52,394 nt of DNA from Deltaproteobacteria bacterium (GTDB lineage: Bacteria > Desulfobacterota > Syntrophia > Syntrophales > Smithellaceae): the NCBI GenBank assembly GCA_025361065.1, contig JANYAY010000117.1:1-52394 (forward strand). Reading direction: 5' to 3'. The position numbers and the translations under genes are program-made. Of this stretch, positions 9,312 to 44,996 are shown piece after piece. Under the pieces are notes generated by a model. The model saw nothing but the letters and a program-made list of their open reading frames with translations. It was not told the origin of the DNA and did not search any database. The first letter of the stretch is position 1, and the number at the start of each line of letters is the position of its first letter.

Positions 9312-10036
9312 TGGAAAAACCAGTTGCCATTGTCACCGGGGGAGCCACAGGCATCGGCGCCGCCTGCTGCCGGGCATTATCTCACGAAGGCTTTCATGTT
9401 GGCATCCATTATCGTAAGAGTGCCGAACAGGCGCAAAAAATTCTTACCGCAATAAAAGACGGTTTTTTGATTAAGGCGGATCTCGTCAATATCGAAGATG
9501 TCGAAGCTATGGTCATGAAATTCAAAGAAGATGTGGGGCGGGTCGATGTTCTGGTTAACAATGCCGGTCAATCGATTAATGCCGACATTCTTTCCATGAA
9601 GATTGAGCAATTCGATGAACAGCGGGCGCTCACCAGGGGTATCTGGTATCTGACCAAAAGGATTCTGCGGCAATTCATGCTGCGCCAGGCAGCCGGCCGG
9701 ATTATCAACATTTCCAGTGTTGTCGGCCATACGGGCAACGCCGGTCAAATCCCGTACACGATGGAGAAAGCGGCCCTGGATGCCTTTACTAAATCTCTGG
9801 CCCGGGAACTGCGCGGGCGCAATATTCTGGTAAATTCTGTTGCCCCGGGTTTCATCGCAACGGAAATGACCAGGGATTTACCGGAGGATGTAAAGAGCCA
9901 GATTATGGCGGGAATTACTTTGAACCGAATGGGTCTTCCGGAGGAAGTTGCGGAGGTTGTCGCGTTTCTTGCTAAAAAGGGCAGCTATATAACCGGCAGT
10001 GTAATTCATGTTAACGGGGGCCTTTATGGCGGCTGA
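9308..10036 (+). CDS. 3-oxoacyl-ACP reductase, SDR family (FabG-like)
   Basis: About 242 residues. AGGAGGTG at 9296-9303 fixes the start at one of two adjacent ATGs (9308 or 9311); upstream codons overlap KAS III in another frame and are not translated. Classical short-chain dehydrogenase motifs: cofactor-binding VTGGATGIG, NNAGQSI, catalytic Ser in INISSVVGHTG and the YxxxK pair in PYTMEKAA, and VAPGFIATEMT. The C-terminal YITGSVIHVNGG is typical of FabG. It reduces a 3-oxoacyl-ACP to 3-hydroxyacyl-ACP with NAD(P)H. It overlaps KAS III by four bases and the dehydratase by eleven, so these genes form one tightly coupled unit. Confidence 0.92.
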   Translation: MMEKPVAIVTGGATGIGAACCRALSHEGFHVGIHYRKSAEQAQKILTAIKDGFLIKADLVNIEDVEAMVMKFKEDVGRVDVLVNNAGQSINADILSMKIEQFDEQRALTRGIWYLTKRILRQFMLRQAAGRIINISSVVGHTGNAGQIPYTMEKAALDAFTKSLARELRGRNILVNSVAPGFIATEMTRDLPEDVKSQIMAGITLNRMGLPEEVAEVVAFLAKKGSYITGSVIHVNGGLYGG

Positions 10037-31703: not shown

Positions 31704-32438
31704 TCATGATTTTCTTGACTTACAAGACAGCGTTTCCTTGGGCGCGAGTCCTATGAAAGACACCATTTCTCGAACATGTTTGAATTTCTCCAAATCGTCT
31801 AGTTCTGCCAGGATGTGAGGAATTGTTGCCTTGCCGATCGCAGGAATAGAATCCAGTAATTCTTTTCTCTGTTTAAGATTCGGGTCTTGTCCTATCAGAT
31901 CGTTAATTTGACGTCTGATCTTTTCAATTTCCTGATCCAAATAGGCTATATGTTCTTTAATCAAAGAAACTATAGATTCATGCGCCGTGCTGAGCCGATT
32001 CTTCTCCTGACTGCGCATGTCGATAAGGCTATCAACCCGTCTGACCAGGGCTCTCAAGGATCTGATCGCAGGTGTTGGCGGCATCCATTCACCTGGTTTC
32101 ATAGCCTGGCAGAACCGGGCAATCAAGGCGGCATCAATCTTATCAGTTTTGGTGCGGATCAGTTCACTCTGACCAAATCCCTTGATGCGGGCAGGATTAA
32201 CAATACTGACAACATGGCTGGCCTCATAAAGATAAATCGCCAAATCCTCTCCATAATTGCCAGTGTCTTCCAGGCAGGCATGGACCTTGTGAATTCCCTG
32301 CTTCTCCAGCCAGAGCCTCAGGGCCTCAAAACCTTCCGCAGAGTTCTTGCAGGCCTTATGTTTTGTCTTCCCATCTACAAGAAGTGCAGCATCGAATTTC
32401 TGTTTCGATATATCTATTCCAAGAACCTCTACTGACAT
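31704..32438 (-). pseudogene. IS110-family (DEDD) transposase, C-terminally truncated
   Basis: The start at 32438 has GAGAGGTATTTAT before it. The N-terminal DEDD/RuvC-like domain is intact: LGIDISKQKFDAALL, HACLEDTGNYGEDLA, and RTKTDKIDAALIARFCQ. The C-terminal domain begins (LLDSIPAIGKATIPHILAEL, MVSFIGLAPKETLS) but the frame ends 7 residues later. Intact relatives run about 80-90 residues further, including the serine of the SG motif. At 245 residues against about 330 the enzyme should be inactive. The truncation point lies near 31735. Confidence 0.88.
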
Positions 32439-32660
32439 ATAAATACCTCTCATAAAATTATAAACAGCTACCTTGGTAAAAAAGCTTCGTCCGAATCAAC
32501 CTTGCAAGTGCAAACTCAGTCCCATCTGGGAAGGTTTATGATACCGTACGAGTTACTGAACAAAGCAGAGGGAAGAGGAGCTACTCTACAAACAATGCTC
32601 TCTGGCATTAGGTGAAACACAGATTCACTCCTCCCATTTTACCCCGGCGTCCCAGGGCGT
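31704..32660 (-). mobile_element. truncated IS110-like element with 5' non-coding end
   Basis: Contains the truncated transposase and about 220 bp of upstream non-coding sequence (32439-32660) in which IS110-group elements carry a structured bridge RNA. On the minus strand this region has AATGC-CAGAGA-GCATT and other small hairpins. The left boundary is the truncation; the right boundary is not defined by any repeat I can see. Confidence 0.5.
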
Positions 32661-33015: not shown

Positions 33016-33222
33016 TTAACCGGTTCCGGCGATGAGCCCTAAAATATTTTGCCGCTTAGCATAATATTGTCGCAGCTCCTTGGGCGATATATGATGAGCT
33101 TCAAAAAGTAATTTTAAGCTCTGACATAACCGGGGCATTAATCTAGCTCTTGTTCTTTCATAATCTTCCAAGACAGGCACCCATAGTTCAATGACCACCT
33201 GCTGTTCATGTTTCATCCGCAT
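33016..33222 (-). CDS. short hypothetical protein or gene remnant
   Basis: 68 residues, MRMKHEQQVVIELWVPVLEDYERTR...LCQSLKLLFEAHHISPKELRQYYAKRQNILGLIAG. The composition is protein-like and the middle resembles a helix-turn-helix-like helical stretch, but there is no convincing ribosome binding site and no family was recognised. It may be the remains of a larger gene in this IS-rich gap. Confidence 0.3.
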   Translation of the reverse strand: MRMKHEQQVVIELWVPVLEDYERTRARLMPRLCQSLKLLFEAHHISPKELRQYYAKRQNILGLIAGTG

Positions 33223-33480
33223 CTAATGTGGTCTTTTCTGCCTTTACTTCTTATACCAAAAGAGTTAGCTAATAACTGAGCTTTAACATCCGGCCCGAGT
33301 CAGGCAGATGTTGCCGGAGGATGTTTGTCGAAAAAGTATTTTAGGCCGGACCGAAACATCCGATAATAAATGTGACGTCCCGCAGTTGTTCTGCCCGCCA
33401 TTTCCGGAAACCCGGATATCATAAAGAGGGATTGAACTGACTATTTTGAGGGACCATTAAACATAACTGGAGAAAAAGGC
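33223..33480. other. leader region of the ankyrin-caspase locus
   Basis: About 260 bp with no gene. GGAG about 12 bases before ATG 33481 is the only translation signal; no promoter could be assigned. Confidence 0.45.
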
Positions 33481-35721
33481 ATGACAAGCAAATGGTTTGC
33501 CGGGATAGTTATTGTGTTGCTGCTGGTGGGATTATGGCCTGCCGGGAGTTCTTCGGAGAGCCGTCTTCCGCCGCCCGATTATCCTCTTCTGGAAGCAGTT
33601 AAGAAAAATGATGTTGATGCGGTCAGAGCCATCCTGGGAGCATTTGCAAGCCATTCGGAAATCAACCGGCGCGGGGTGACCGGTGATCTGCCGCTGGTGA
33701 GGGCCGCCCGCAACGGGAATCTGGAAATCGTCCGATTGCTGATCGAGCGCGGCGCGACAGTGGATATCGGCAAGGAGAACGGCGACCGGACGCCTCTACT
33801 CGAAGCCGCCGGGCAGGGCCATGTTGACGTTGTAAAATTCCTGCTTTCCAAGGGTGCTGATGTCAACGCCAGAGGAAAAGGGTTGACACCGTTGCTTCTG
33901 GCCTGTGCCTGGGGGCAACTGCCTGCCGGCCCTCCCGGCGATAAAACGACAACGATTCATATCCTCCTGGAAAACGGAGCGGACGTTAATGCCCAGGATG
34001 AATCCTGGTTGAAAACGGGCCGGACACCTCTGATGTATGCAGTGATGCAGGGAAATGCGGCATTAGTGCAGACACTCCTGGGCAAAGGCGCCAGGCTGGA
34101 TTTGAAAAATAAGGATGGCGACACCGCTTTGTCGCTGGCGAAAAAAGACGGCCTGGAATATATTGCGCAATTGCTGGAAAAGCATGCCGGCAGCGCAAAT
34201 GAATCGGCCGGGCAAGCCGATCCGGATAAAGTTAAGGCGCTCATCTCCAAGGGCGCGGATGTCAATCTCCGGACGCCGACGGGCAGTACGCCTTTAATGT
34301 ATGCAGCCGATGGCAACAAACTTGAGATTATCCGGGCATTGCTCCGTTCCGGCGCCGACGTGAACGCCAAAAACGGCGCCAACAGTACCGCGCTGATCTT
34401 TGCATCCGTTAAGGGCCATCTCGGAGTGGCGAAGGAGCTTTTGAGAAGGAAAGCAGATGTGAATGTGAAGAACATCGGCGGTGCGGATGCCCTCATCTAT
34501 GCCGTGGTGAATAAAAAGGCGAAAGCAGTTGAGGCATTGCTCGCGCATGGAGCAAACGTAACCGATACTTATGACGAAGGAAAAACCGCGCTGCTCAAGG
34601 CCGCAAATGACGGCAGTAACGATATTGCCGGTTTGCTTATCGCCTGCAAGGCGGATGTGAACGCCGCAGATAATAATGAAATGACCGCGCTCATGATAGC
34701 CAGCGAAAAAGGCAATGCCGCTTTGGTGGAAATGCTTTTAAAGGCCGGCGCGGATATCAGCAAGAAATCAAAATACGGGGATACGGCTCTCAGTAAAGCG
34801 ATCCAAGGTCATCATGTTCCGATTGTTAAAAAATTAATCAAAAGCGGCTGGAAGTATGACAGGCGGGATGCTCTTTCTTCTGCAGTGATTGCCGGTGATC
34901 CGGAGATCGTCAAGCTTCTGCTGACGAAAGATACGGATGTGAATGCGAGAGGCTTCGCGGGGGGGACTTTGCTGATGCTGGCAGCCGACGGAGATTCGTC
35001 CCTGGTAAAATTTCTGGTTGAAAGAGGTGCGGATGTTAACCTTAAGGATGACGAAGGGACGACGGCTTTAATGAAGGCGGTCACATCTTATCATAAAACA
35101 AATACGGCTGCGATGAAGTATCTGATTGATCGTGGTGCGGATGTCAATGACTCAAACAACAAAGGTGAGACGGCGCTGATTCTGGCAGTCAAAAAAGGCA
35201 ATCCGGAGATGGTCAAGATATTGGTCGAAAAAGGAAGCGCTTTTGCGCTGAAGGATAAAGCGGGAAAATCGGCCTGGACCTATGCGGTCGAAGGCGACCA
35301 TCCTGAAATTTTCGGCCTTCTGGAAAAAATGGGCGCATTACGGGATTATTCCGGTATGGAATGGAAGGGAAATGTCTCCAATCAGAAAGAGCCCTTTATC
35401 AAGGTTGTGGACACGCGAAAGGAATGGTCCGAACTCTGGCGGCGCGCTTTTGACAAGCCTGCGCCCGATATGGATTTTGAAAAGTATGTTGTGGCGTGTG
35501 TTTTTCTGGGCTATTCCGCCGACTGGCTGTATTCGATCTCCATGGGTAAACCTGTTTTGCGCGACAACCAATTGGTTGTTGAATATGCGCTCATTGAAAT
35601 GATTTTACGCCTCTCCGGGCCCTTTAAAGCGGGTGGTCAGTATCATATGCAGGTTCTAGAAAAGGTGAAAAACGTAAAGATGGTTTTGGAAGAGGCCGGT
35701 CCAACTTCCCGGAGAAGGTAA
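33481..35721 (+). CDS. secreted ankyrin-repeat protein with PrcB-like C-terminal domain
   Basis: 746 residues. N-terminal signal peptide (MTSKWFAGIVIVLLLVGLWPAGSSS). Residues about 35-620 are a continuous array of roughly 16 ankyrin repeats (for example TPLLEAAGQGHVDVVKFLLS and TALILAVKKGNPEMVKILVE). After the last repeat a globular domain (about 630-740) reads FIKVVDTRKEWSELWRR...DFEKYVVACVFLGYSADWLYSI...QLVVEYALIE...YHMQVLEKVKNVKMV. This pattern of EW-x-x-LW, hydrophobic VVAxFLG strands and a final strand resembles the PrcB_C domain of proteins that stabilise secreted proteases in spirochaetes. If so, a periplasmic scaffold or chaperone for a protease is plausible, and caspase-like genes lie just downstream. 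Starts a likely operon with the next gene 2 bp away. Confidence 0.85.
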   Translation: MTSKWFAGIVIVLLLVGLWPAGSSSESRLPPPDYPLLEAVKKNDVDAVRAILGAFASHSEINRRGVTGDLPLVRAARNGNLEIVRLLIERGATVDIGKENGDRTPLLEAAGQGHVDVVKFLLSKGADVNARGKGLTPLLLACAWGQLPAGPPGDKTTTIHILLENGADVNAQDESWLKTGRTPLMYAVMQGNAALVQTLLGKGARLDLKNKDGDTALSLAKKDGLEYIAQLLEKHAGSANESAGQADPDKVKALISKGADVNLRTPTGSTPLMYAADGNKLEIIRALLRSGADVNAKNGANSTALIFASVKGHLGVAKELLRRKADVNVKNIGGADALIYAVVNKKAKAVEALLAHGANVTDTYDEGKTALLKAANDGSNDIAGLLIACKADVNAADNNEMTALMIASEKGNAALVEMLLKAGADISKKSKYGDTALSKAIQGHHVPIVKKLIKSGWKYDRRDALSSAVIAGDPEIVKLLLTKDTDVNARGFAGGTLLMLAADGDSSLVKFLVERGADVNLKDDEGTTALMKAVTSYHKTNTAAMKYLIDRGADVNDSNNKGETALILAVKKGNPEMVKILVEKGSAFALKDKAGKSAWTYAVEGDHPEIFGLLEKMGALRDYSGMEWKGNVSNQKEPFIKVVDTRKEWSELWRRAFDKPAPDMDFEKYVVACVFLGYSADWLYSISMGKPVLRDNQLVVEYALIEMILRLSGPFKAGGQYHMQVLEKVKNVKMVLEEAGPTSRRR

Positions 35722-35723
35722 TT

Positions 35724-36269
35724 GTGATAAGGGAGATCGCTTATACAACCCTGGGCAGGAATGCTCTTGCTGCCGGGTTGATTTGTCATGCAGCAGCCAT
35801 CATTCTGGGGATGACGTCCGCATCCGGCGCCGATATTTTTTTCAAAGCCGTTTATCTTTTTTCCTGCCATGCCCTTGGCGCCGGCGCGTTTGTGGAATTA
35901 CGCCATCGGGGTATTCGTCCCTGGAACACCTGGCGATTCTACCTGATCTTGTCGTTGACAGTTCTTCCCGTCCTGGGGCCGCTGGTTCTTCTTGGCCTGA
36001 TCTACAGCTTACCCCGGGAAGGGCAGCAAGGGCAAAGGTATTGGACCGATCTGTTCCCCGCGATACTGAAACTCAGAGCCAACGTCATGATGGTTTTTGC
36101 CTTGATCATCCTTCTTTTCCTTCTGTTTACCGTTCTTCACAGCAGGCATGACCCTTATTTCAAGCGGCGGGCTCCCAGCAATCGATCAGAGCAATCCGTT
36201 TTAAACACCGGTCATCCTGAAATTGCCGCGCGGATACTTATTCTGAAAAAAGGTGAGGAATTATGCTAA
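35724..36269 (+). CDS. polytopic membrane protein of unknown function
   Basis: 181 residues from GTG 35724, two bases after the ankyrin gene stop, so co-translated. Hydrophobic stretches at about 15-35, 38-56, 72-94 and 120-140 suggest four membrane helices; the C-terminal 40 residues are hydrophilic. No family recognised. The gene overlaps the next by seven bases. Confidence 0.65.
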   Translation: MIREIAYTTLGRNALAAGLICHAAAIILGMTSASGADIFFKAVYLFSCHALGAGAFVELRHRGIRPWNTWRFYLILSLTVLPVLGPLVLLGLIYSLPREGQQGQRYWTDLFPAILKLRANVMMVFALIILLFLLFTVLHSRHDPYFKRRAPSNRSEQSVLNTGHPEIAARILILKKGEELC

Positions 36270-36798
36270 AAAAATATCAGCCCGAACGCACGGATTTATG
36301 GATGAACAATGATTGGGCCATTCTTCACCATGACTTAGCAGCACAAGAAGCCCCAAGCAGAACGATGCTGCTTTATAAAAGTGAAAAAAGCGCGCCTTTA
36401 TTGTTTATCCCGGGTTGGATCGGCTTGTATTATCTTTTGCGCAGGACAGCCCGGAGAATCCTCCGGCCCCAAACCGGATCAAAACCGGTTTGGTATAAAA
36501 AATTCCGGCCATCCGTCATGTCATTTATGGGATTGCGCTTTTGACCGGGTTAGGAGTCGGGTATGTTATCAACGATCTGAGCCAGGCCCGGCGCATGGCT
36601 GCCGGTGCCTGCGGGCAGGCGGCAGCGGGAATGCCAATGGAATAGTTTTTATTAAAATTCCCCGCAGCGGTTAACAAAATCATTCGGGGTTCGGAAAGGA
36701 TCACGATCGTGCCGAAAAGAGTTATGGGCCGGAACCACTGCCGTGTCAATTATGACGAGCGAGTGCTTATCGGCGCCAAAACAGGATTTGCCGATTAA
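36263..36798 (+). pseudogene. decayed membrane-protein gene (frameshift plus in-frame stop)
   Basis: The frame from ATG 36263 encodes MLKKYQPERTDLWMNNDWAIL...PLLFIPGWIGLYYLL and then ends at 36544 in the wrong frame. Shifting frame at the A-run near 36497-36502 continues into IRHVIYGIALLTGLGVGYVINDL, a clear membrane helix, up to a TAG at 36643-36645. Reading through that stop in the same frame gives another protein-like stretch, IIRGSERITIVPKRVMGRNHCRVNYDERVLIGAKTGFAD, ending at TAA 36796-36798. One lost base plus one nonsense change (TCG to TAG would do) therefore explain about 178 residues: a two-helix membrane protein with a soluble tail. Lies 45 bp before the first WD40-caspase gene. Confidence 0.7.
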
Positions 36799-36842
36799 TT
36801 AAAGAAGAGAATGTTCGAAAAAAAAAGGCAGGAGTATCCAAT

Positions 36843-39800
36843 ATGTTTGCATCCACTAATTTATTACGTCCATTGGCGGTCGTGATCGGCTTGATCACGA
36901 TATTGTCCATTTTGCCTGTTTCCGGATTTGCCGCCGACAATCTGGTTTCAATGGAAGGACGAGAAAAGCCGGAAACCTTCGTCCAGATTGGGCACACGTC
37001 ATCAATCAACACGATAGATTTATCGCCGGACGGCAAGTGGATTCTTTCCGGAAGTGATGACGACAGCATCAAACTATGGGAAGCCGAAAGTGGGAGATTG
37101 ATAAGAACCTTCAAGGACAACGATAATGTTGAATTTGCCGCCTTTCTGCCCGGCGGCAGATCATTTTTCTCCTTTAACTGGAAGGGGAATGTCAGTGTCT
37201 GGGATATCCGGACCGGCGGGAAGATGCGGGAGTTTGCTATGAGTGAAATGAGCGGAGCCACAAGCGGTCATTCCCTTTCTTACGACGGTGCCGTGCTGCG
37301 GGCGATCGTCGGCCTCAGGCTGTATATCGCCGATATGTCCAGGGGCGTTGTCGCAAGCGTCGTCGAGCGGCCCAAATCCGGCCCTATTGCCAGCCGTCTG
37401 GGATTTGCTTTCGGATCTCGCAATGCCATTTCCACCGACGGCAGGCTGATGTTTTCCTCCGTGCGGGAAAGCTCGTCGGAGTCGATCATGCAAAGCAAAG
37501 ACAGAGCACTGATGCTTTGGGAAATCGCCACCGGCCGGATTCTGGCCACGCTGTCCGGGCACACAGACAGAATCGACGTTGTTACCTTGTCCTCCGACAA
37601 TCGCCATGCGCTTTCCGGCAGCCGCGATAAAACCGTGAGACTTTGGGATTTAAAAAAGGGGCGGGCCGCAGCCGTGTTCACCGGCCACCTAAAAGCGATT
37701 GAAGCCCTCGCCTTTTCTCCCGACGGTAAATATATTCTTTCCGGCAGCCGCGACAACATGATGAAACTGTGGAGCGTTGACGATGAAAAAGAAATCCGGA
37801 CTTTTGCTCATGATTGCGAGGTCACCTTTGTCCGGTTCTCACGGGACGGCCGGTACGCCCTGTCTGGCGACGATAACGGGGCAATCAGGTATTGGGATAT
37901 CCAAAACGGCCAGGAGATCAAAGCACTGAAAAGTCATGCCGCCGATACCAATGCGTTCGCGTATTCCCCGGACGGGAAATATCTGCTGACCGGTTCTGCG
38001 AAAGGGCAGCTCAGGCTCTGGGATGCGGCCGCAGGAAGGATGCTGAGAAATATCGATGCCCATCGGGAAACCATTACGGCTGCGCAGTTCACGCCCGACG
38101 GCAAATACGTCCTTTCCGCCAGCTACGACAAGACGATGAAATTGTGGGATAGAAACGACGGACAACTGAAGAGAACCTTTCGGGGGCATACCGGGCAGGT
38201 ATACAGGGCTGTCGTCTCTCCGGACGGTCAGTATATTCTGAGTTCTGCGCAAGGCAACGATATCCGGTTGTGGAACCTCGCCAGCGGTGCGGAAATGACC
38301 GTCCTGAATTTATCAGGCGTATATCTCTGGTCCATCGGATTTTCGGCAGACAGCCGGCATATGCTGATCGCCCACGATCAGAAGAAATCAGGCCATACGG
38401 TCAAAGTTTTGGCTTTGGACGGCCGCGAAGTGAAGCGCTATGTGGATGCCGCTTTCGGCGGCTACTCGGTCGACGGGAAATATTTTTTATCACGGGAGTA
38501 CCGGGAACAGACAGGCCAGGAGCAGAAACTTTTTGCCCCTGATGCCCAACCAAAAAAGAAGATCAATCATCGGGACCAGCTCAACGAAAACGAGCTGGTG
38601 GATATAAGCACCGGCAAGGCGCTGGGCCGCTTCGGGCAAAAGGGCGCGATTGTTTCCGTCTCCATATCCACCGAGCCGAACGTTGTTCTGACCAAGAACC
38701 GCTATGACCGGGACATTCGCCTGTGGGATGTCACAAGCGGCAAGGAGATTCGGCGGTTTCCCGTCCGCTTCGGTCTGCTCACTTATGACGGGAAAAAAAT
38801 CATCGCACCGTCAGCCCAGACACTGCAGGCCTTCGACACGGCGACAGGCCGCACAGGTGCGCCGTTTGCAGGCCTCGCCGCAGCGAAGATCAGCGCCATG
38901 GCCCTTTCCGCCAGAGGCGGCTACGCCGTTACAGGCGATGAATCGGGGATGATGCAGTTTTGGGATGTCGGCACCGGTAAACTTTTGAAAACCATCAAAG
39001 CCGAAGAACGAAATAGGATCATCGCCGTCGCCTTTTCGCCGGACAATCAATATGCAGCAACGATGGCCCGTTTCGGCATGCTTAAAATCTGGAATTTGCG
39101 AGACGGCCAAAAGATCTCCGAATTCAAAACGGACTATGTGCCTGCCAACTACGAAGAGGTCGAAGCCGGTGATTATGTGAATTATGGAAACGGCGTTCTG
39201 GCCTTTTCCCCCGACAGCCGTCATATTGCCTGTGGTCCCGTACTCCTCGACGCCGCCACAGGCCGTAAAGTGCTCGATTTTCAAACCCCCAACGGCCCGG
39301 GCTACTGGGTGACTTTCTCGCCGGACGGCGCCTACCTGCTTTCCAAAAACATGCTCTGGGATACGGCTACGGGCCGCCGTGTCCGGAAGATGGAAAGCAT
39401 CACGGATGGAACCTTCTCTCTTTTCTCCGCCGATGGGAAAACGATTTATGCCGCCGACGTTGACGGAGTTTTCAGCGTGGTCGATCCGGATACAGGCAAA
39501 CTCATCCGCAGGTATAAAGAGTATATCTCCGGCGCTACGTTTGCCGTTTCCCGGAATCAGAAAATGATGGTTGCGGCGGATCGGGATGTAAACGAGCTCA
39601 CCTTGTGGAATCTGACATCGGGCAAAAAAAGCGCCGCGATCGCTGCCAATCGGAATATTTCGAGTGTGGAGCTTTCTTCCGATGCCCGCAGAGTGATGGT
39701 CAATCACCGTGTTTCTGCGGCACAGTATGACTTCGGGGCTGGCAAGGAACTCGCGCAGTTTATCAGCTTCACGGATGGGGAATGGATCGTGATCACGCCG

Positions 39801-41048
39801 GAAGGCTACTACAATACATCGGCCGGAGGAGAGCGTTACCTCAATGTTCGTGTGGGTGAACAGGTTTACGGTATTGAAAATTACCGGGAGACTTTCTTCC
39901 GTCCCGATCTGGTCAAGGTGGCGCTGTCCGGCGGATCTCTCAAAGACTTCCGGAAACTGGCCGACGTAAAAGAGCCGCCGGCCGTGAAAATTGTCGAGAC
40001 GCCAGCTTCCGTCAGCACGGATGAAGTCACCGTGCGGCTTCAGCTCACCGATCAGGGCGGCGGCATCGGCGACATTCGCCTTTATCTCAACGGCACCGCC
40101 GTGGTGATGGACAGCCGCGCCGTGCAGATCCGGGAAAAAACGGGCAAAGCGGTTTTGAAGAGTTATGATCTGAAACTGGTGAACGGGAAAAATACGATCA
40201 AAGCTGTGGCCTTCAACGGCGACAACAGCATGCAGAGCAATGAAGCGACGCTCGAGGTGACGGCAAGCTATGCCAGGGCGGGAAAGCCGTCGCTTTCGGC
40301 GCTGGTGATCGGCATTAACCAATTTAAGAATCCGAAACTCAAGCTGCAATATTCCACCGCGGATGCGGATCTGTTTGCCGCCACGCTGCAGAGCGTGTCG
40401 GAAGGCCTCTTTGACCGGGTGACTATCAAAAAACTGATCCGGCCGGAGCAGACCACAAGCGAGGCGATCCTCCGGGAGATCAGAGCTTTTCAGTCTTTGC
40501 GCCCGGATGACCTGTTTGTTTTTTACATCGCGAGCCACGGAACGGTGGATGAAGGAGAATATTTTCTGATTACATCCAATGTGGGATCGCTCCGGACGGA
40601 GAAACTCAAGGCGGATGCCATCTCCCAGCACAAGCTGAAAGAGGCTATTGCCAATATTCCGGCGACGAAGAAACTGATTATCATCGATACCTGCAACGCA
40701 GGCGCTTTAGGAGAAGCCATCCAGGTGGCGATGATGACCCGCGGCATGAGCGAGGATACGGCACTCAAGATTTTAAGCCGCGCTGTGGGTTCGACGATTC
40801 TATCGGCATCCACCTCCATGCAGGAAGCGCTCGAAGGATACAAAGGACACGGTCTGTTTACGTATGTATTGACCGAAGGGCTGAAAGGCAAGGCGGATAA
40901 AGGGAAGACCGGATATGTGAGGACCACGGAGCTTGCCGATTATGTGGATAATGAGGTGCCGATACTGGCGGAGAGGGTGTTCAAGCGCGCACAGTATCCG
41001 ACGATTTCCATCAGCGGGCAGGCGTTTCCCATCGGGCAGGTCAGGTAG
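36843..41048 (+). CDS. exported WD40-repeat protein with C-terminal caspase-like (C14) peptidase domain, copy 1
   Basis: 1401 residues; AGGAG 8 bases before ATG. Signal peptide MFASTNLLRPLAVVIGLITI followed by LSILPVSGFAADN. From about 50 to 1000 the protein is a long series of WD40 repeats (for instance FSPDGKYILSGSRDNMMKLW and FTPDGKYVLSASYDKTMKLW), enough for two or more beta-propellers. A beta-rich linker with ITPEGYYNTSAGGERYLNVR and an Ig-like stretch (about 1050-1140) leads to the caspase-like domain (about 1146-1390): SALVIGINQFKNPKL, catalytic His1232 in FYIASHGTVDEG, and nucleophile Cys1284 in LIIIDTCNAGALGE. Both catalytic residues are intact. WD40-caspase fusions are known from cyanobacteria and myxobacteria, usually cytoplasmic; the signal peptide here implies an envelope location. 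Confidence 0.92.
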   Translation: MFASTNLLRPLAVVIGLITILSILPVSGFAADNLVSMEGREKPETFVQIGHTSSINTIDLSPDGKWILSGSDDDSIKLWEAESGRLIRTFKDNDNVEFAAFLPGGRSFFSFNWKGNVSVWDIRTGGKMREFAMSEMSGATSGHSLSYDGAVLRAIVGLRLYIADMSRGVVASVVERPKSGPIASRLGFAFGSRNAISTDGRLMFSSVRESSSESIMQSKDRALMLWEIATGRILATLSGHTDRIDVVTLSSDNRHALSGSRDKTVRLWDLKKGRAAAVFTGHLKAIEALAFSPDGKYILSGSRDNMMKLWSVDDEKEIRTFAHDCEVTFVRFSRDGRYALSGDDNGAIRYWDIQNGQEIKALKSHAADTNAFAYSPDGKYLLTGSAKGQLRLWDAAAGRMLRNIDAHRETITAAQFTPDGKYVLSASYDKTMKLWDRNDGQLKRTFRGHTGQVYRAVVSPDGQYILSSAQGNDIRLWNLASGAEMTVLNLSGVYLWSIGFSADSRHMLIAHDQKKSGHTVKVLALDGREVKRYVDAAFGGYSVDGKYFLSREYREQTGQEQKLFAPDAQPKKKINHRDQLNENELVDISTGKALGRFGQKGAIVSVSISTEPNVVLTKNRYDRDIRLWDVTSGKEIRRFPVRFGLLTYDGKKIIAPSAQTLQAFDTATGRTGAPFAGLAAAKISAMALSARGGYAVTGDESGMMQFWDVGTGKLLKTIKAEERNRIIAVAFSPDNQYAATMARFGMLKIWNLRDGQKISEFKTDYVPANYEEVEAGDYVNYGNGVLAFSPDSRHIACGPVLLDAATGRKVLDFQTPNGPGYWVTFSPDGAYLLSKNMLWDTATGRRVRKMESITDGTFSLFSADGKTIYAADVDGVFSVVDPDTGKLIRRYKEYISGATFAVSRNQKMMVAADRDVNELTLWNLTSGKKSAAIAANRNISSVELSSDARRVMVNHRVSAAQYDFGAGKELAQFISFTDGEWIVITPEGYYNTSAGGERYLNVRVGEQVYGIENYRETFFRPDLVKVALSGGSLKDFRKLADVKEPPAVKIVETPASVSTDEVTVRLQLTDQGGGIGDIRLYLNGTAVVMDSRAVQIREKTGKAVLKSYDLKLVNGKNTIKAVAFNGDNSMQSNEATLEVTASYARAGKPSLSALVIGINQFKNPKLKLQYSTADADLFAATLQSVSEGLFDRVTIKKLIRPEQTTSEAILREIRAFQSLRPDDLFVFYIASHGTVDEGEYFLITSNVGSLRTEKLKADAISQHKLKEAIANIPATKKLIIIDTCNAGALGEAIQVAMMTRGMSEDTALKILSRAVGSTILSASTSMQEALEGYKGHGLFTYVLTEGLKGKADKGKTGYVRTTELADYVDNEVPILAERVFKRAQYPTISISGQAFPIGQVR

Positions 41049-41140
41049 TTGATGGTTTTTAATTCACGGCTCAGCGCTCGAAGCGCTCAGAAGAATTCGG
41101 GCTTTAAGACAGCTTGTTCCAGGAAGATGAAAGGATATTT

Positions 41141-44100
41141 ATGACCAGGAAGTTAATTATTGCTTATTGTTTTTTGATAATTTCATTTTTTTCAACCGAA
41201 GCATTTTGTGCCGGTCAGCCGGAATTTTTTGTGCAGCTGGGGCATTCGGCAACCGTCCATTCCACCGCTTTTTCCCCGGACGGAAAATACGCCGCATCGG
41301 GCGGAATGGACAATAATGTGAAGCTCTGGAGCGTGGAAACAGGCCGCGAAATGAGAACCCTCCAGGGACATACCAGTTATATCACCTTCGTGACCTTTTC
41401 TCCTGACGGACGTTACATTGTCTCGGCAAGCCATGACATGACCATCCGGCTTTGGGATGTCCCGGGCGGAAGGGAAGTCAAACGGATCAGCGATGTGCTG
41501 GTCGTTCAGCATATTGCTTTCAGTCCTGAAGGAGATTTATTGTTTGGCAACACCCTGGGGACCATCACTATCTGGAATATACAAACGGGCGCCTCCAGAA
41601 AATTAGAGGCTGCTTACGGAAAAGGAGAAATTCAGGCGGTCACTTTCCTTGAAAAGGGAAAGTATATCCTCGTGGCCCGGAAGTCGGGCTTTACGGTGGT
41701 GGACACGAAGACGGATAAAATCGTCCGTACCTTCGGAAGCAACACGGCGTCATCTTCAGATGTGTCCATCGCTTTTTCCAAAGACGGGCGCTTTGCGCTC
41801 GTCGGTAAATTTAATCAGATGATTTTGTGGGACATTCCATCAGGAAAAGAGATTCGCACGTTTTCCGGAACAGCGGGTAAATTCAATAGCGTCGCTTTTT
41901 CACAAGACGGCCGTTATGTCCTGTCGGGCGATGAAGGTTACATGCTGAAAATATGGGAGACGGCAACGGGCAGGGAAGTCCGTTCGATCTATCATTACCG
42001 GCGTTATATCTACGGCGCCCGCTACGGCGTGACCGCTGTTGCCTTTTCGCCTGAAGGAAAGCGCGCCCTGGCCGGTTACAAAGACGGGTCTATAAAATTA
42101 TGGGATGTCTTTCGGGATGACCCGGTGGTGGGCGGTGTCAGGCAAAACTCCGCGGCGCAAAAAGCCGCTCTTACCGAGGGCGACACTATCCTTTCCGTCG
42201 ATGGCAAGAAAATCCATTCATGGCAGGAATTTACAGACAAAGTCAAAGGCAGCCCGAACCAGGAACTGCGCATCGCGGTTATGCGTCATCAGCAGGAGCG
42301 TTCCGTTGTCATGACTCCTGCGGCCGTTCCGACCAGAGACAACCGGGGAAAAGAGATAATCGCAGGTGAAGCCGGCCTTCTGGAAGGGGGCGTCTGCCTG
42401 CATCATCTGGAAGGCTACAAGCAAAAAGTATCGTCCGCGGCTCTTTCAGCGGATGGCCGGCATCTGGCAGCCGGACACGGGGATGGCGCAATGTCCTTGT
42501 GGAATATGCAGACGGCAAGCCAGTTGCGGAAGGCCCATCCTTATCGAAATGAATTCTCCGTTGCCTTTTCACCCCGGAAAAACATATTTCTTTCGGCCGG
42601 TGATGAAAACATAACGGTGTGGGCAACAGACAGCGCCCAGCCCCTGGCCAGGTTTGAGCAGGCCGACATATCCCTGGTCGCCAGAGCGCTTGCGTTTTCT
42701 CCGGATGGCCGGTATGCCGCTGCCGGCGGGGACAAGAAGGTTGCGCTCTATGACATGCAGACGCTGCGGGAAATCCGCTCTGTGCCGCTGCAAAGGGGCG
42801 CAAAAGCCGTTGCGATATCATCGAACAATAACTATCTCGCCTCCGGGGCGTCCATGGAAGTGAAGGTATGGAATGCACAAACAGGCGCAGAGATCAGAAC
42901 CATGCGGCACGGTTCTTTCGTTTATGTCGTTGATTTTGCTTACGGCGGCCGGCGTCTGGTATCCGGAGCGCAGCGCTATTCGGGCATCGGTTTGGATTAC
43001 GAAAATACCATCAAGCTGTGGGATGTCTCCACGGGCCGGGAACTGCTTAACTTCAGCAGATACAAAAAGTCCGTTTATGACGCCAGGTTTTCACCGGACG
43101 GCCGCCTGCTGCTTTCAGGCGGGGATGAGCTGATCTTGTGGGATGCGGACACGGGAAGCATGTTGAAAACTTTTTCCGGTCATCATGGTATGATCGAGTC
43201 TGTGGCATTTCTGCCGGATGGAAAGTCCATCATGTCGGCAGGCGATGACGGGACCGTCCGGATATGGTCTTTGAAAACCGGCCGGGAGATGGTTCAATTG
43301 GTCAGTTTTGCCGACGGCGAATGGATTGGAATTACGCCGGAAGGCTATTTCAATGCCTCGCCTGGCGGAGCAAAGCATCTCAATGTCCGGGTCGGAAACG
43401 ACGTCTATGGCATCGATCAGTTTTATGCAAAGTTTTACCGGCCGGAACTGGTCGAGCTCGCCCTCGCCGGCAAGGCACTTCCCCGGAGCGAGTTGATTAC
43501 GGATATTGCCGCTCAAAAACCCGCACCTAATGTTCAGATCCTGTCGCCCGTCACCAACAGCTCGGTGGATCAGGACAGCATTTCCGTTACACTCAAGGTC
43601 ACGGACAGCGGCGGCGGGATCGGCCGTGTGAATGTCTATCTCAACGGGGCGCAGGTCGCCAATGACACTCGGGGTGTTATCGTATTGGGCAAGGGGGCGG
43701 CCAATGAAAAAATCCTGTCGTTTACCGTCGCGCTTGTTCAAGGGCAGAATGAAATTCGTGTCGTCGCTTTCAATCATGAGCACTCCATGGAGTCGAATCC
43801 TGCCCGAATCAGCGTTGTCTCCCGCGCCATGATGCGTAAGCCCAATCTCTATGCGCTGGTGATCGGCATCAATACCTACAGGAACCAATCCATTTCCCTA
43901 ACCTATGCAGTTCCCGATGCTGTTGCTTTTGCCGGGACGCTGCAGAAAGTTGCCGCCCCGTTGTTTGAGAAGGTGGACATCCTGACGCTGACCGCGCCGG
44001 AGGCGACCACGAAAGAGGCCGTTACGAAAGCCTTTGAGGGGCTGCGGCAGAAGGTCGGACCCAACGACCTGTTTATTTTCTACAATGCTTCCCACGGCAT

Positions 44101-44623
44101 TGTTGACGTGGTCAACGGGGAAGAACAGTATTTTCTACTGACGAGTAATGTCCGGCTCCTTTCGTCCCTTCATATAGGCAAAGACGCCCTGAGTCATAAA
44201 GACCTGGTCAGTCTGATCGGCAGCATTCCGGCGCAGAAAAAACTCGTGATTCTCGACACCTGCAATGCCGGCAAGGGAGGCAAGGAGATTCAGATCGCCC
44301 TCCTGCAGCAGACGAGAGGTCTCACCGACGCTACAGCGGTCAAACTCCTGCAGCGGGCGGTAGGCTCCTCGGTCTTTTCCGCTTCTTCCGATACTCAACA
44401 GGCTCTGGAAGGATATAAAGGACACGGTCTGTTTACCTACGTGCTCCTCGAAGGTTTGCAGGGTGCGGCGGACTTCAAAAAAGACGGATTCATCACCGTT
44501 AAGGGGCTTGCTCTCCATACAGAGGAGAGGGTGATGACGCTGTCCGAGGACGTCTTCAAGCGTCAACAAAATCCGATGATTGAAACGGGTGTCAATGATT
44601 TTCCGATCGGCAGGGTGAAATGA
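41141..44623 (+). CDS. exported WD40-PDZ-WD40 protein with C-terminal caspase-like (C14) domain, copy 2
   Basis: 1160 residues from ATG 41141 (GAAAGGA upstream). Signal peptide MTRKLIIAYCFLIISFFSTE-AFCA. WD40 repeats fill about 30-325 (FSPDGRYIVSASHDMTIRLW). A PDZ-like domain of about 65 residues is inserted at about 328-395: GGVRQNSAAQKAALTEGDTI then LSVDGKKIHSWQEFTDKV. A second run of WD40 repeats covers about 420-720. A linker (ITPEGYFNASPGGAKHLNVR) and an Ig-like region lead to the caspase domain with His985 in FYNASHGIVD and Cys1041 in VILDTCNAGKGG. The 5' and 3' halves parallel copy 1, so the two are paralogues, 92 bp apart in tandem; the PDZ domain is unique to this one. Confidence 0.92.
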   Translation: MTRKLIIAYCFLIISFFSTEAFCAGQPEFFVQLGHSATVHSTAFSPDGKYAASGGMDNNVKLWSVETGREMRTLQGHTSYITFVTFSPDGRYIVSASHDMTIRLWDVPGGREVKRISDVLVVQHIAFSPEGDLLFGNTLGTITIWNIQTGASRKLEAAYGKGEIQAVTFLEKGKYILVARKSGFTVVDTKTDKIVRTFGSNTASSSDVSIAFSKDGRFALVGKFNQMILWDIPSGKEIRTFSGTAGKFNSVAFSQDGRYVLSGDEGYMLKIWETATGREVRSIYHYRRYIYGARYGVTAVAFSPEGKRALAGYKDGSIKLWDVFRDDPVVGGVRQNSAAQKAALTEGDTILSVDGKKIHSWQEFTDKVKGSPNQELRIAVMRHQQERSVVMTPAAVPTRDNRGKEIIAGEAGLLEGGVCLHHLEGYKQKVSSAALSADGRHLAAGHGDGAMSLWNMQTASQLRKAHPYRNEFSVAFSPRKNIFLSAGDENITVWATDSAQPLARFEQADISLVARALAFSPDGRYAAAGGDKKVALYDMQTLREIRSVPLQRGAKAVAISSNNNYLASGASMEVKVWNAQTGAEIRTMRHGSFVYVVDFAYGGRRLVSGAQRYSGIGLDYENTIKLWDVSTGRELLNFSRYKKSVYDARFSPDGRLLLSGGDELILWDADTGSMLKTFSGHHGMIESVAFLPDGKSIMSAGDDGTVRIWSLKTGREMVQLVSFADGEWIGITPEGYFNASPGGAKHLNVRVGNDVYGIDQFYAKFYRPELVELALAGKALPRSELITDIAAQKPAPNVQILSPVTNSSVDQDSISVTLKVTDSGGGIGRVNVYLNGAQVANDTRGVIVLGKGAANEKILSFTVALVQGQNEIRVVAFNHEHSMESNPARISVVSRAMMRKPNLYALVIGINTYRNQSISLTYAVPDAVAFAGTLQKVAAPLFEKVDILTLTAPEATTKEAVTKAFEGLRQKVGPNDLFIFYNASHGIVDVVNGEEQYFLLTSNVRLLSSLHIGKDALSHKDLVSLIGSIPAQKKLVILDTCNAGKGGKEIQIALLQQTRGLTDATAVKLLQRAVGSSVFSASSDTQQALEGYKGHGLFTYVLLEGLQGAADFKKDGFITVKGLALHTEERVMTLSEDVFKRQQNPMIETGVNDFPIGRVK

Positions 44624-44669
44624 TGTTTATGGACACGCAAAAGTACGGGCACTGAATGTCGCGACTGCT

Positions 44670-44996
44670 ATGAGTGCGCTGGTTTTATTGATGAGCTCAG
44701 CCTGGGCTTCGGACAAGCCGGGAATCTTTGTCCAGTTGGGCCATTCCGGCGTGCAGCCGACGGCCTTTTCCGCTGATGGAAAATGGATCATGTCTGGCGG
44801 TGATAAAACGGTAAAGCTCCGGGATGCGGTGGCAGGCGCGCACACGTGCTATGCTGCAGCGGTTGCTTTTTCAACCGGTGAGCGTTTGTTCTTTCTTGCA
44901 ACCGGTATTAATAATTTTCAGTTCCACTGTCCCGGGAACAAATCTCCACCCGGGCTGACCGGTTTTGGGGAAATCCTCAAAAAAGCTGAACTCTAA
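44670..44996 (+). pseudogene. remnant of a third WD40-caspase paralogue
   Basis: The first half parallels the N-terminus of the two large proteins: signal-like MSALVLLMSSAWASDKPG, then IFVQLGHSGVQPTAFSADGK and WIMSGGDKTVKLRDA, i.e. the same FVQLGHS...FS.DGK.....G...VKL opening as copy 2. After about residue 55 the similarity stops and the rest (YAAAVAFSTGERLFFLATGI...) has no WD40 or caspase pattern. A 108-codon remnant of a gene more than 3 kb long, left by deletion immediately after copy 2. Confidence 0.75.

Follow-up and report, generated by a model that had tools for sequence, protein, structure and literature searches.

Gene organization of the locus

We analysed a contig of 52,394 nucleotides (the window; contig C47, JANYAY010000117.1) from the 3.95-Mb draft genome of a Deltaproteobacteria bacterium of the family Smithellaceae, order Syntrophales (G000; GCA_025361065.1). 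The element under study is a block of tightly spaced genes on its plus strand, which code, in order, for an ankyrin-repeat protein with a putative PrcB-like C-terminal domain (Ank-PrcB), two membrane proteins (mem1 and the decayed mem2) and two proteins that join WD40 repeats to a caspase domain (WD40-caspases A and B). The features are as follows.

33481..35721, plus strand: ankyrin-repeat protein, 746 amino acids (aa), with a C-terminal PrcB-like domain and an export-like N-terminus (Ank_2, E 1e-118; hydrophobic residues 6-24)
35341..35718, plus strand: stretch coding for the PrcB-like domain, 126 aa (hhalign 96.9%; NF033596, E 6.7e-4; AlphaFold predicted local distance difference test (pLDDT) 87.4)
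35724..36269, plus strand: mem1, small membrane protein, 181 aa, GTG start (no Pfam match above cut-off)
36263..36800, plus strand: mem2, membrane-protein pseudogene with a frameshift and an internal deletion (intact orthologue of 274 aa in the related genome G001)
36843..41048, plus strand: WD40-caspase A, 1401 aa, with an export-like N-terminus, WD40 propellers, an Ig-like linker and a C-terminal caspase domain
40299..41012, plus strand: Peptidase_C14 domain of A, H1232/C1284
41141..44623, plus strand: WD40-caspase B, 1160 aa, with an export-like N-terminus, WD40 repeats flanking a PDZ domain, a Big_7 Ig-like domain and a C-terminal caspase domain
42152..42307, plus strand: PDZ domain of B, the portion matched by PDZ_2 (29.2 bits, cut-off 27)
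43850..44587, plus strand: Peptidase_C14 domain of B, H985/C1041
44652..44894, plus strand: 5' remnant of a third WD40-caspase gene (tblastn, 60% identity, E 2e-27)

The open reading frame (ORF) of B is 1169 aa in all, and the 1160 aa are counted from the ATG at 41141. The stretch 44652-44894, downstream of B, aligns with residues 12-100 of the middle caspase of G001; judged from this alignment, only the 5' end of a third caspase gene survives in the window. This remnant lies inside the region that had earlier been described from the sequence alone (the sequence-only reading) and was not named there. The same reading had recognized two membrane-protein genes upstream of the caspases, one of them decayed, and comparison with the intact 274-aa orthologue in G001 confirmed this for mem2. 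Both membrane genes code for three or four hydrophobic segments each. A truncated transposase gene of the IS110 family lies upstream of the locus (31704-32453). Scans for promoters (12 against 8.7 in shuffles) and terminators (15 against 15.4) were uninformative, being at about the shuffle level.

WD40-caspases A and B have intact catalytic dyads

The tandem proteins of 1401 and 1160 residues described in the sequence-only reading were recovered as ORFs. Peptidase_C14 (PF00656) matches A with 68 bits and B with 56.5 bits (curated cut-off 21.4), and Pfam finds WD40 arrays in both. The His/Cys dyads are intact and exactly as that reading had given them, H1232/C1284 in A and H985/C1041 in B, and in both proteins the C14 domain is at the C-terminus. 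The PDZ profile that it had suggested searching with also matched, as PDZ_2 in B; this domain sits between WD40 stretches, and Big_7 precedes the caspase domain.

AlphaFold modelled the C-terminal 482 residues of A with middling confidence (mean pLDDT 63). In a Foldseek search with this model the top rank was an Ig-like module, and further Ig-like modules as well as caspase-3, -6 and -7 (E about 1e-6 to 1e-4) were among the best matches. A PDB sequence search with the C-terminal part of A returned no relatives, the caspase fold being visible only through structure comparison.

We scanned and aligned 44 C14 members of the genus, that is, the 46 C14 ORFs less L130 and L133, which lie at contig ends. 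All 44 matched Peptidase_C14 and 23 matched WD40. Both dyad residues are kept in 42, the other two having Cys to Tyr and His to Tyr replacements. A WD40-caspase paralogue of the same genome (L013:5912-9130, minus strand) has Tyr in place of the catalytic Cys and is likely a pseudo-enzyme.

Predicted export is usual among the caspase homologues of this genus

Export was judged by a home-made signal-peptide rule applied to N-termini. Ank-PrcB, A and B each have a single hydrophobic N-terminal stretch, and the rule is positive for A and B at a background rate of 49/158. To this extent the N-termini are compatible with the signal peptides ascribed to these proteins in the sequence-only reading, export itself being a prediction. 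Among the C14 ORFs of four genomes of the genus (G000, G001, G002 and G003, with 10, 6, 10 and 20 C14 matches, respectively), 42 of 46 have an export-like N-terminus, compared to 49 of 158 further ORFs (200 aa or longer) from these loci. The rule was negative for L125 (which it rejects despite a hydrophobic start), L129, L133 (truncated at a contig end) and L148. By this rule, predicted export is the usual state of caspase homologues in the genus. Nearly all C14 proteins of the four genomes appear to leave the cytoplasm, so their substrates should be envelope or extracellular proteins.

Export signals of caspase homologues are also on record in the literature. A likely signal peptide, seen as a single N-terminal helix, is reported for a minority of metacaspases (Asplund-Samuelsson et al. 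2012, PMC3501461), cyanobacterial pseudo-orthocaspases have a TAT-like signal (PMC6426788), and the receptor domain of one Microcystis orthocaspase is probably extracellular or periplasmic (PMC5756287). The remark in the sequence-only reading that bacterial WD40-caspases are mostly discussed as cytoplasmic is qualified by that minority in PMC3501461 and by the 42 of 46 that look exported here by our rule. A and B resemble the metacaspases and orthocaspases of that survey in joining a C14 His/Cys dyad to WD40 repeats, WD40 being the most frequent partner type there (73/671 sequences). Export-like starts are prevalent in the genus, unlike in that set, and A and B differ from it further in the C-terminal position of the caspase domain after an Ig-like linker, in their tandem arrangement and in their linkage to PrcB-like and membrane genes.

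Two other caspase-containing arrangements in this genome may be recorded here. A caspase-domain ORF of 481 aa (G000:C147:29697-30920) has a lipoprotein-like start and its own ankyrin-like stretch, and a similar ORF is present at L144:5342-6649. On a small contig, a tandem pair of exported-looking caspase-domain genes (L010:4790-8377) lies beside a gene that is lipocalin-like by eye.

The ankyrin protein has a remote PrcB-like C-terminus

The sequence-only reading had likened the C-terminus of the ankyrin protein to PrcB_C and had named a profile match as the test. For the isolated 126-aa domain, no PF14343 (PrcB_C) match was listed at E<=10 (filters remove most matches above 0.1). PF14343 was found in 0/40 genomes (this one and its relatives) and in 7/297 genomes of the phylum. 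The dentilisin PrcB model NF033596 matched the domain with 19.5 bits (E 6.7e-4), below its equivalog cut-off of 125. Profile-profile comparison by hhalign of nine PrcB-like sequences with the seven PF14343 proteins gave a probability of 96.9% (E 1.5e-10), and 95.4% (E 1.7e-8) when the bridging G299 protein was omitted; 40 column-shuffled controls reached at most 2.4% and a mem1 alignment 0.5%. The G299 protein was also retrieved by a profile of the window's own domain. The resemblance therefore holds by profile-profile comparison and not as a direct PF14343 match, and these comparisons point to a PrcB-like domain that is real but remote.

AlphaFold predicts the domain with a pLDDT of 87.4 as mainly strands with one helix. 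It had no sequence relatives in PDB and no Foldseek match under E 0.001 (best 1.7), and VIA-align of the model was uninformative (best Z 3.0 over 47 residues). Ten named records carry the PrcB-like domain; the closest is HGW-Deltaproteobacteria-12, with 95% identity over the domain, and the others are labelled Smithella, Smithellaceae, Syntrophaceae and Syntrophus, all of the order Syntrophales. Pfam confirmed ankyrin repeats only for the window, L099 and L117; the other Ank-PrcB proteins are named by size and by eye. The names MzaA and Dot/Icm Ank, offered for this protein by NCBIfam and PADLOC, were rejected as they reflect the ankyrin repeats, and the NCBIfam scores are far under the cut-offs.

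Caspase genes are linked to PrcB-like and mem1 genes within Syntrophales

The PrcB-like domain was found in 10 of 155 Syntrophales genomes and in one further named record, L099. From these 11 loci we left out G080, where the contig ends inside the gene. Among the 10 evaluable loci, six have a C14 gene within 10 kb (G000, G001, G018, G067, G076 and G079). With 10 C14 genes in 4 Mb, about one in 20 random genes would lie within 10 kb of one; the observed linkage is far above chance by arithmetic only, the loci being related and not independent. In G072, the PrcB-like protein (168 aa, hydrophobic start) has no ankyrin repeats; its gene is followed by mem1 and then by a WD40 ORF that leaves the contig ahead of any visible caspase domain. 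Linkage of PrcB, mem1 and WD40-caspase genes recurs in two genera. In L062, a further short C14 match (9769-10032) next to where the first caspase frame ends was left out of the gene count.

Relatives of mem1 are present in 15 of the 155 genomes. A C14 gene lies within the fetched flank in eight of these, including G154 of another family, in which mem1 overlaps the WD40-caspase gene; in G072 and G077 the WD40 ORF is cut off at the contig end. No C14 gene is shown in the flanks from G011, G030, G006, G126 and G064 (the last on a contig of 3.7 kb).

Outside the order we sampled 395 genomes of the phylum. In G282, of another family, mem1 stands directly behind Ank-PrcB with no C14 gene in 20 kb, and at the G181 locus (L119) a profile match was reported, yet the ORF caller gave no PrcB ORF. 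In the loci covered outside the order no C14 gene is near, so the link between caspase and PrcB genes, itself unproven, is specific to this lineage, and Ank-PrcB with mem1 extends beyond it. The neighbourhood survey suggested by the sequence-only reading thus bore out the linkage within Syntrophales, and did not extend it to relatives outside.

The PrcB-like domain keeps protease-related company

In two of the seven genomes with PF14343 (G156 and G299), the PrcB_C gene adjoins a gene for an S8 subtilase. In the Syntrophales genome G017, DUF2330 and a Kunitz/BPTI protease-inhibitor domain (47.5 bits, cut-off 21) take the place of the ankyrin repeats in the protein that carries the PrcB-like domain. 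In G282 and G507, outside the order, a DUF2330-Kunitz gene directly precedes Ank-PrcB (51.4 and 50.5 bits). These bacterial Kunitz/BPTI domains, placed behind DUF2330, are encoded at L055:8245-9906 (minus strand), L117:4142-5599 and L118:4564-5808. For the Ank-PrcB protein of the window, no Kunitz match is listed by Pfam. The occurrence of the domain in protease-related company in several arrangements supports a role in protease control, whether helping or restraining.

The caspases and the Ank-PrcB/mem1 tract have probably had separate recent histories

In a tree of 58 C14 domains (the partial domain of G079 was left out), the 17 PrcB- or mem1-linked caspases require 6 label changes, compared to 15.1 in shuffles. 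A and six more of the 17 make up a single well-supported group (100/98); the remaining 10 are spread over other branches, with unlinked paralogues between them. The locus has thus acquired caspases of more than one kind.

Relative to G001, nucleotides 33212-36374 are 94.6% identical, the A tract 88.1%, the B tract 85.3% and the next gene 87.6%. Synonymous divergence (dS) is 0.07 for Ank-PrcB and mem1, and 0.35-0.47 for A, B and a flanking oxidoreductase gene. The Ank-PrcB/mem1 tract was thus probably exchanged recently. The propeller parts of A and B diverge more than the catalytic ends (dS 0.46 and 0.59 against 0.16 and 0.30 for the C-terminal parts). The ratio of nonsynonymous to synonymous divergence is 0.16 and 0.21 for the two caspases, indicating purifying selection, strongest at the catalytic end of A. 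When residues 1209-1401 of A were compared to three genomes of another genus, dS was 0.68-1.18 with proteins 89-95% identical, so purifying selection acts on this part; the low dS of the C-terminal end between G000 and G001 suggests recombination too.

A proposed role in the envelope and its alternatives

The arrangement is conserved and real, and its interest comes mainly from exported caspases being usual in a genus, by the rule applied here, and from their PrcB-like neighbour. We lean, with reserve, to the possibility that the locus encodes envelope proteases guided by their WD40 propellers, with Ank-PrcB as controlling partner and mem1 (and mem2) as anchors. A and B would be exported cysteine proteases of the caspase superfamily. 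Their long propellers, and the PDZ domain of B, may bind periplasmic or cell-surface substrates or ligands, and would present these to the C-terminal caspase domain or switch it on. Ank-PrcB would control the caspases outside the cytoplasm, its PrcB-like domain binding the protease and stabilizing, maturing or holding it, while the ankyrin solenoid may contribute an extra binding surface. mem1 and mem2 would hold the complex at the inner membrane. The purpose would most likely be processing or turnover of envelope proteins. Proteolysis, binding, stabilization, location and purpose are in this scheme what we infer, and so are the ankyrin-PrcB scaffold and the role in death or kin conflict put forward by the sequence-only reading. 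Bacterial caspase homologues are mostly discussed with regard to programmed cell death or conflict. The present set hints that bacterial envelopes may be another place where caspase relatives act, and the linked PrcB-like domain is a concrete candidate partner from which to start finding what such caspases cut.

The model for the PrcB-like role would be dentilisin of Treponema, where PrtP needs PrcB. In its prcB-prcA-prtP genes, PrcB interacts with PrtP, and PrtP is undetected in a non-polar prcB deletion (PMC8167434). The window resembles this system in the remote PrcB homology, in a partner encoded upstream of the protease and in the predicted location outside the cytoplasm; the genomes with PrcB_C beside an S8 subtilase likewise recall it. 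Unlike dentilisin, the window has an ankyrin fusion and a caspase in place of a subtilisin-family protease, no PrcA was seen, the signal region of Ank-PrcB as read from the sequence has no lipobox cysteine, and the domain reaches the threshold of neither PF14343 nor NF033596. The S8 family is absent among the matches listed for the locus proteins and the C-terminal parts (for the whole caspases, the best 25 of 65 and 63).

Several observations weigh against this proposal. G011, G017 and L099 have no linked C14 gene, and G017 has no C14 match genome-wide. G000 has a single PrcB-like domain, and 8 of its 10 C14 genes are located away from this locus. Outside the order, the fetched stretches around the relatives in G350, G282, G507, G181 and G352 contain no C14 gene. 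Five of the seven PF14343 genes have no adjoining S8 gene, and two of the five genomes are without any S8 match. The known partner of PrcB is a subtilisin-family protease and not a caspase, and Kunitz domains are known chiefly as serine-protease inhibitors, not as caspase partners. The ankyrin C-terminus lacks a direct PF14343 match, and the decay of mem2 and of the third caspase indicates that not every part is essential. A bolder extension, which we hold to be unlikely, is that exported caspases have recruited a PrcB-type control domain, which elsewhere accompanies subtilases and Kunitz domains, with diverging WD40 propellers picking the target and with ankyrin-PrcB and membrane proteins controlling assembly or self-protection in an extracytoplasmic, NTPase-free machine.

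A possible, if doubtful, alternative is that exported Ank-PrcB keeps the exported caspases (or further proteases) inhibited on the way to a target, and so protects the producer. A precedent is Bd3460 of Bdellovibrio, an ankyrin protein that the cell needs for self-protection and that binds two endopeptidases and inhibits them, as given in the pertinent parts of PMC4686830. It is alike in being a bacterial ankyrin protein that acts on hydrolases of its own cell; its targets are peptidoglycan endopeptidases and not caspases, and those parts mention no PrcB-like domain. Here too the hydrolases, which look exported, are preceded by an ankyrin gene with an export-like N-terminus, and the propellers of the hydrolases are more divergent than the catalytic ends. 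We rated this alternative higher because of the Kunitz company, an inhibitor domain being fused to or adjoining the PrcB-like domain in three genomes, although the window protein itself has no listed Kunitz match. It fits less well that such a neighbour is missing beside most C14 genes of the genome, that the G072 version has no ankyrin repeats and that Ank-PrcB occurs in other families with no C14 gene nearby.

It is quite unlikely, in our judgement, that Ank-PrcB and mem1 (with mem2) form an independent envelope module, and that exported WD40-caspases merely accumulate beside it at a recombination-prone locus. The caspase-free neighbourhoods in G282, G011, G017 and L099 would agree with this, as would the presence of linked caspases in several tree parts, the truncated transposase gene upstream and the contrast of 33212-36374 with the tracts next to it (94.6% identity against 85-88%, dS 0.07 against 0.35-0.47), which points to separate recent histories. 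Against it, the PrcB-C14 linkage is found in two genera and the mem1-caspase linkage in another family of the order (G154, with overlapping genes), and the adjoining gene ends nearly abut or overlap, which suggests an operon. The Kunitz company, which suggests a protease-related role, led us to rate this explanation lower.

We hold it to be very improbable that the locus is an envelope version of the caspase-based conflict or cell-death systems of Kaur et al. (2020), in which a membrane partner acts with a caspase. In favour of this, the top NCBIfam model is caspase_w_EACC1, at 76.4 and 62.0 bits, and the PADLOC candidate ankyrin model PDC-M72A matches the ankyrin repeats with 297 bits. Against it, both caspase scores are under the model's cut-off of 140, the caspase domain is C-terminal and not N-terminal, no NTPase, adaptor or EACC1 is among the matches listed (for the whole caspases, the best 25 of 65 and 63), the PDC-M72A match is limited to the repeats, and the proteins look exported. 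The greater divergence of the propellers than of the catalytic ends would also suit conflict. In System 4 of PMC7159879 a membrane protein is paired with a caspase, and the window resembles the two-gene EACC1-caspase system in having a membrane-protein gene 5' of a caspase-superfamily gene. It appears to differ from that system in the several hydrophobic segments of mem1 and mem2, and it differs in its C-terminal caspase domains and export-like starts, and in scoring under the model cut-off. No EACC1-named match was obtained for mem1 or mem2, the presence of the EACC1 model in the searched libraries being unchecked. We found no description of the window's arrangement in the open-access literature, which was searched mostly at the level of listings.

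Other genes recurring at these loci

The motif CIGPVPVDVVMID is present in a small lipoprotein-like protein that is encoded repeatedly next to Ank-PrcB or exported caspase genes, at the following positions.

L009:8860-9342: lipoprotein-like copy
L062:13779-14231: lipoprotein-like copy, with no Pfam match
L063:9654-10106: lipoprotein-like copy
L099:11374-11850: lipoprotein-like copy

At two Ank-PrcB loci outside the order (L117:2406-3821 and L118:2591-4039), a secreted-looking upstream protein contains the motif ..EGNCVCA(S/Y)C(N/D)R.. and has no Pfam match.

A protein of ~287 aa, starting with MRK(I/V)LF.. and having DUF4384 in its L063 copy, comes after the caspase block in three genomes. In G011 it stands behind Ank-PrcB and mem1, an order that would fit either loss of the caspases or their insertion at this point. 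Its copies are given below.

L063:15482-16345: ~287-aa protein, DUF4384
L054:9202-10065: ~287-aa protein
L083:3920-4795: ~287-aa protein
L085:4484-5347: ~287-aa protein

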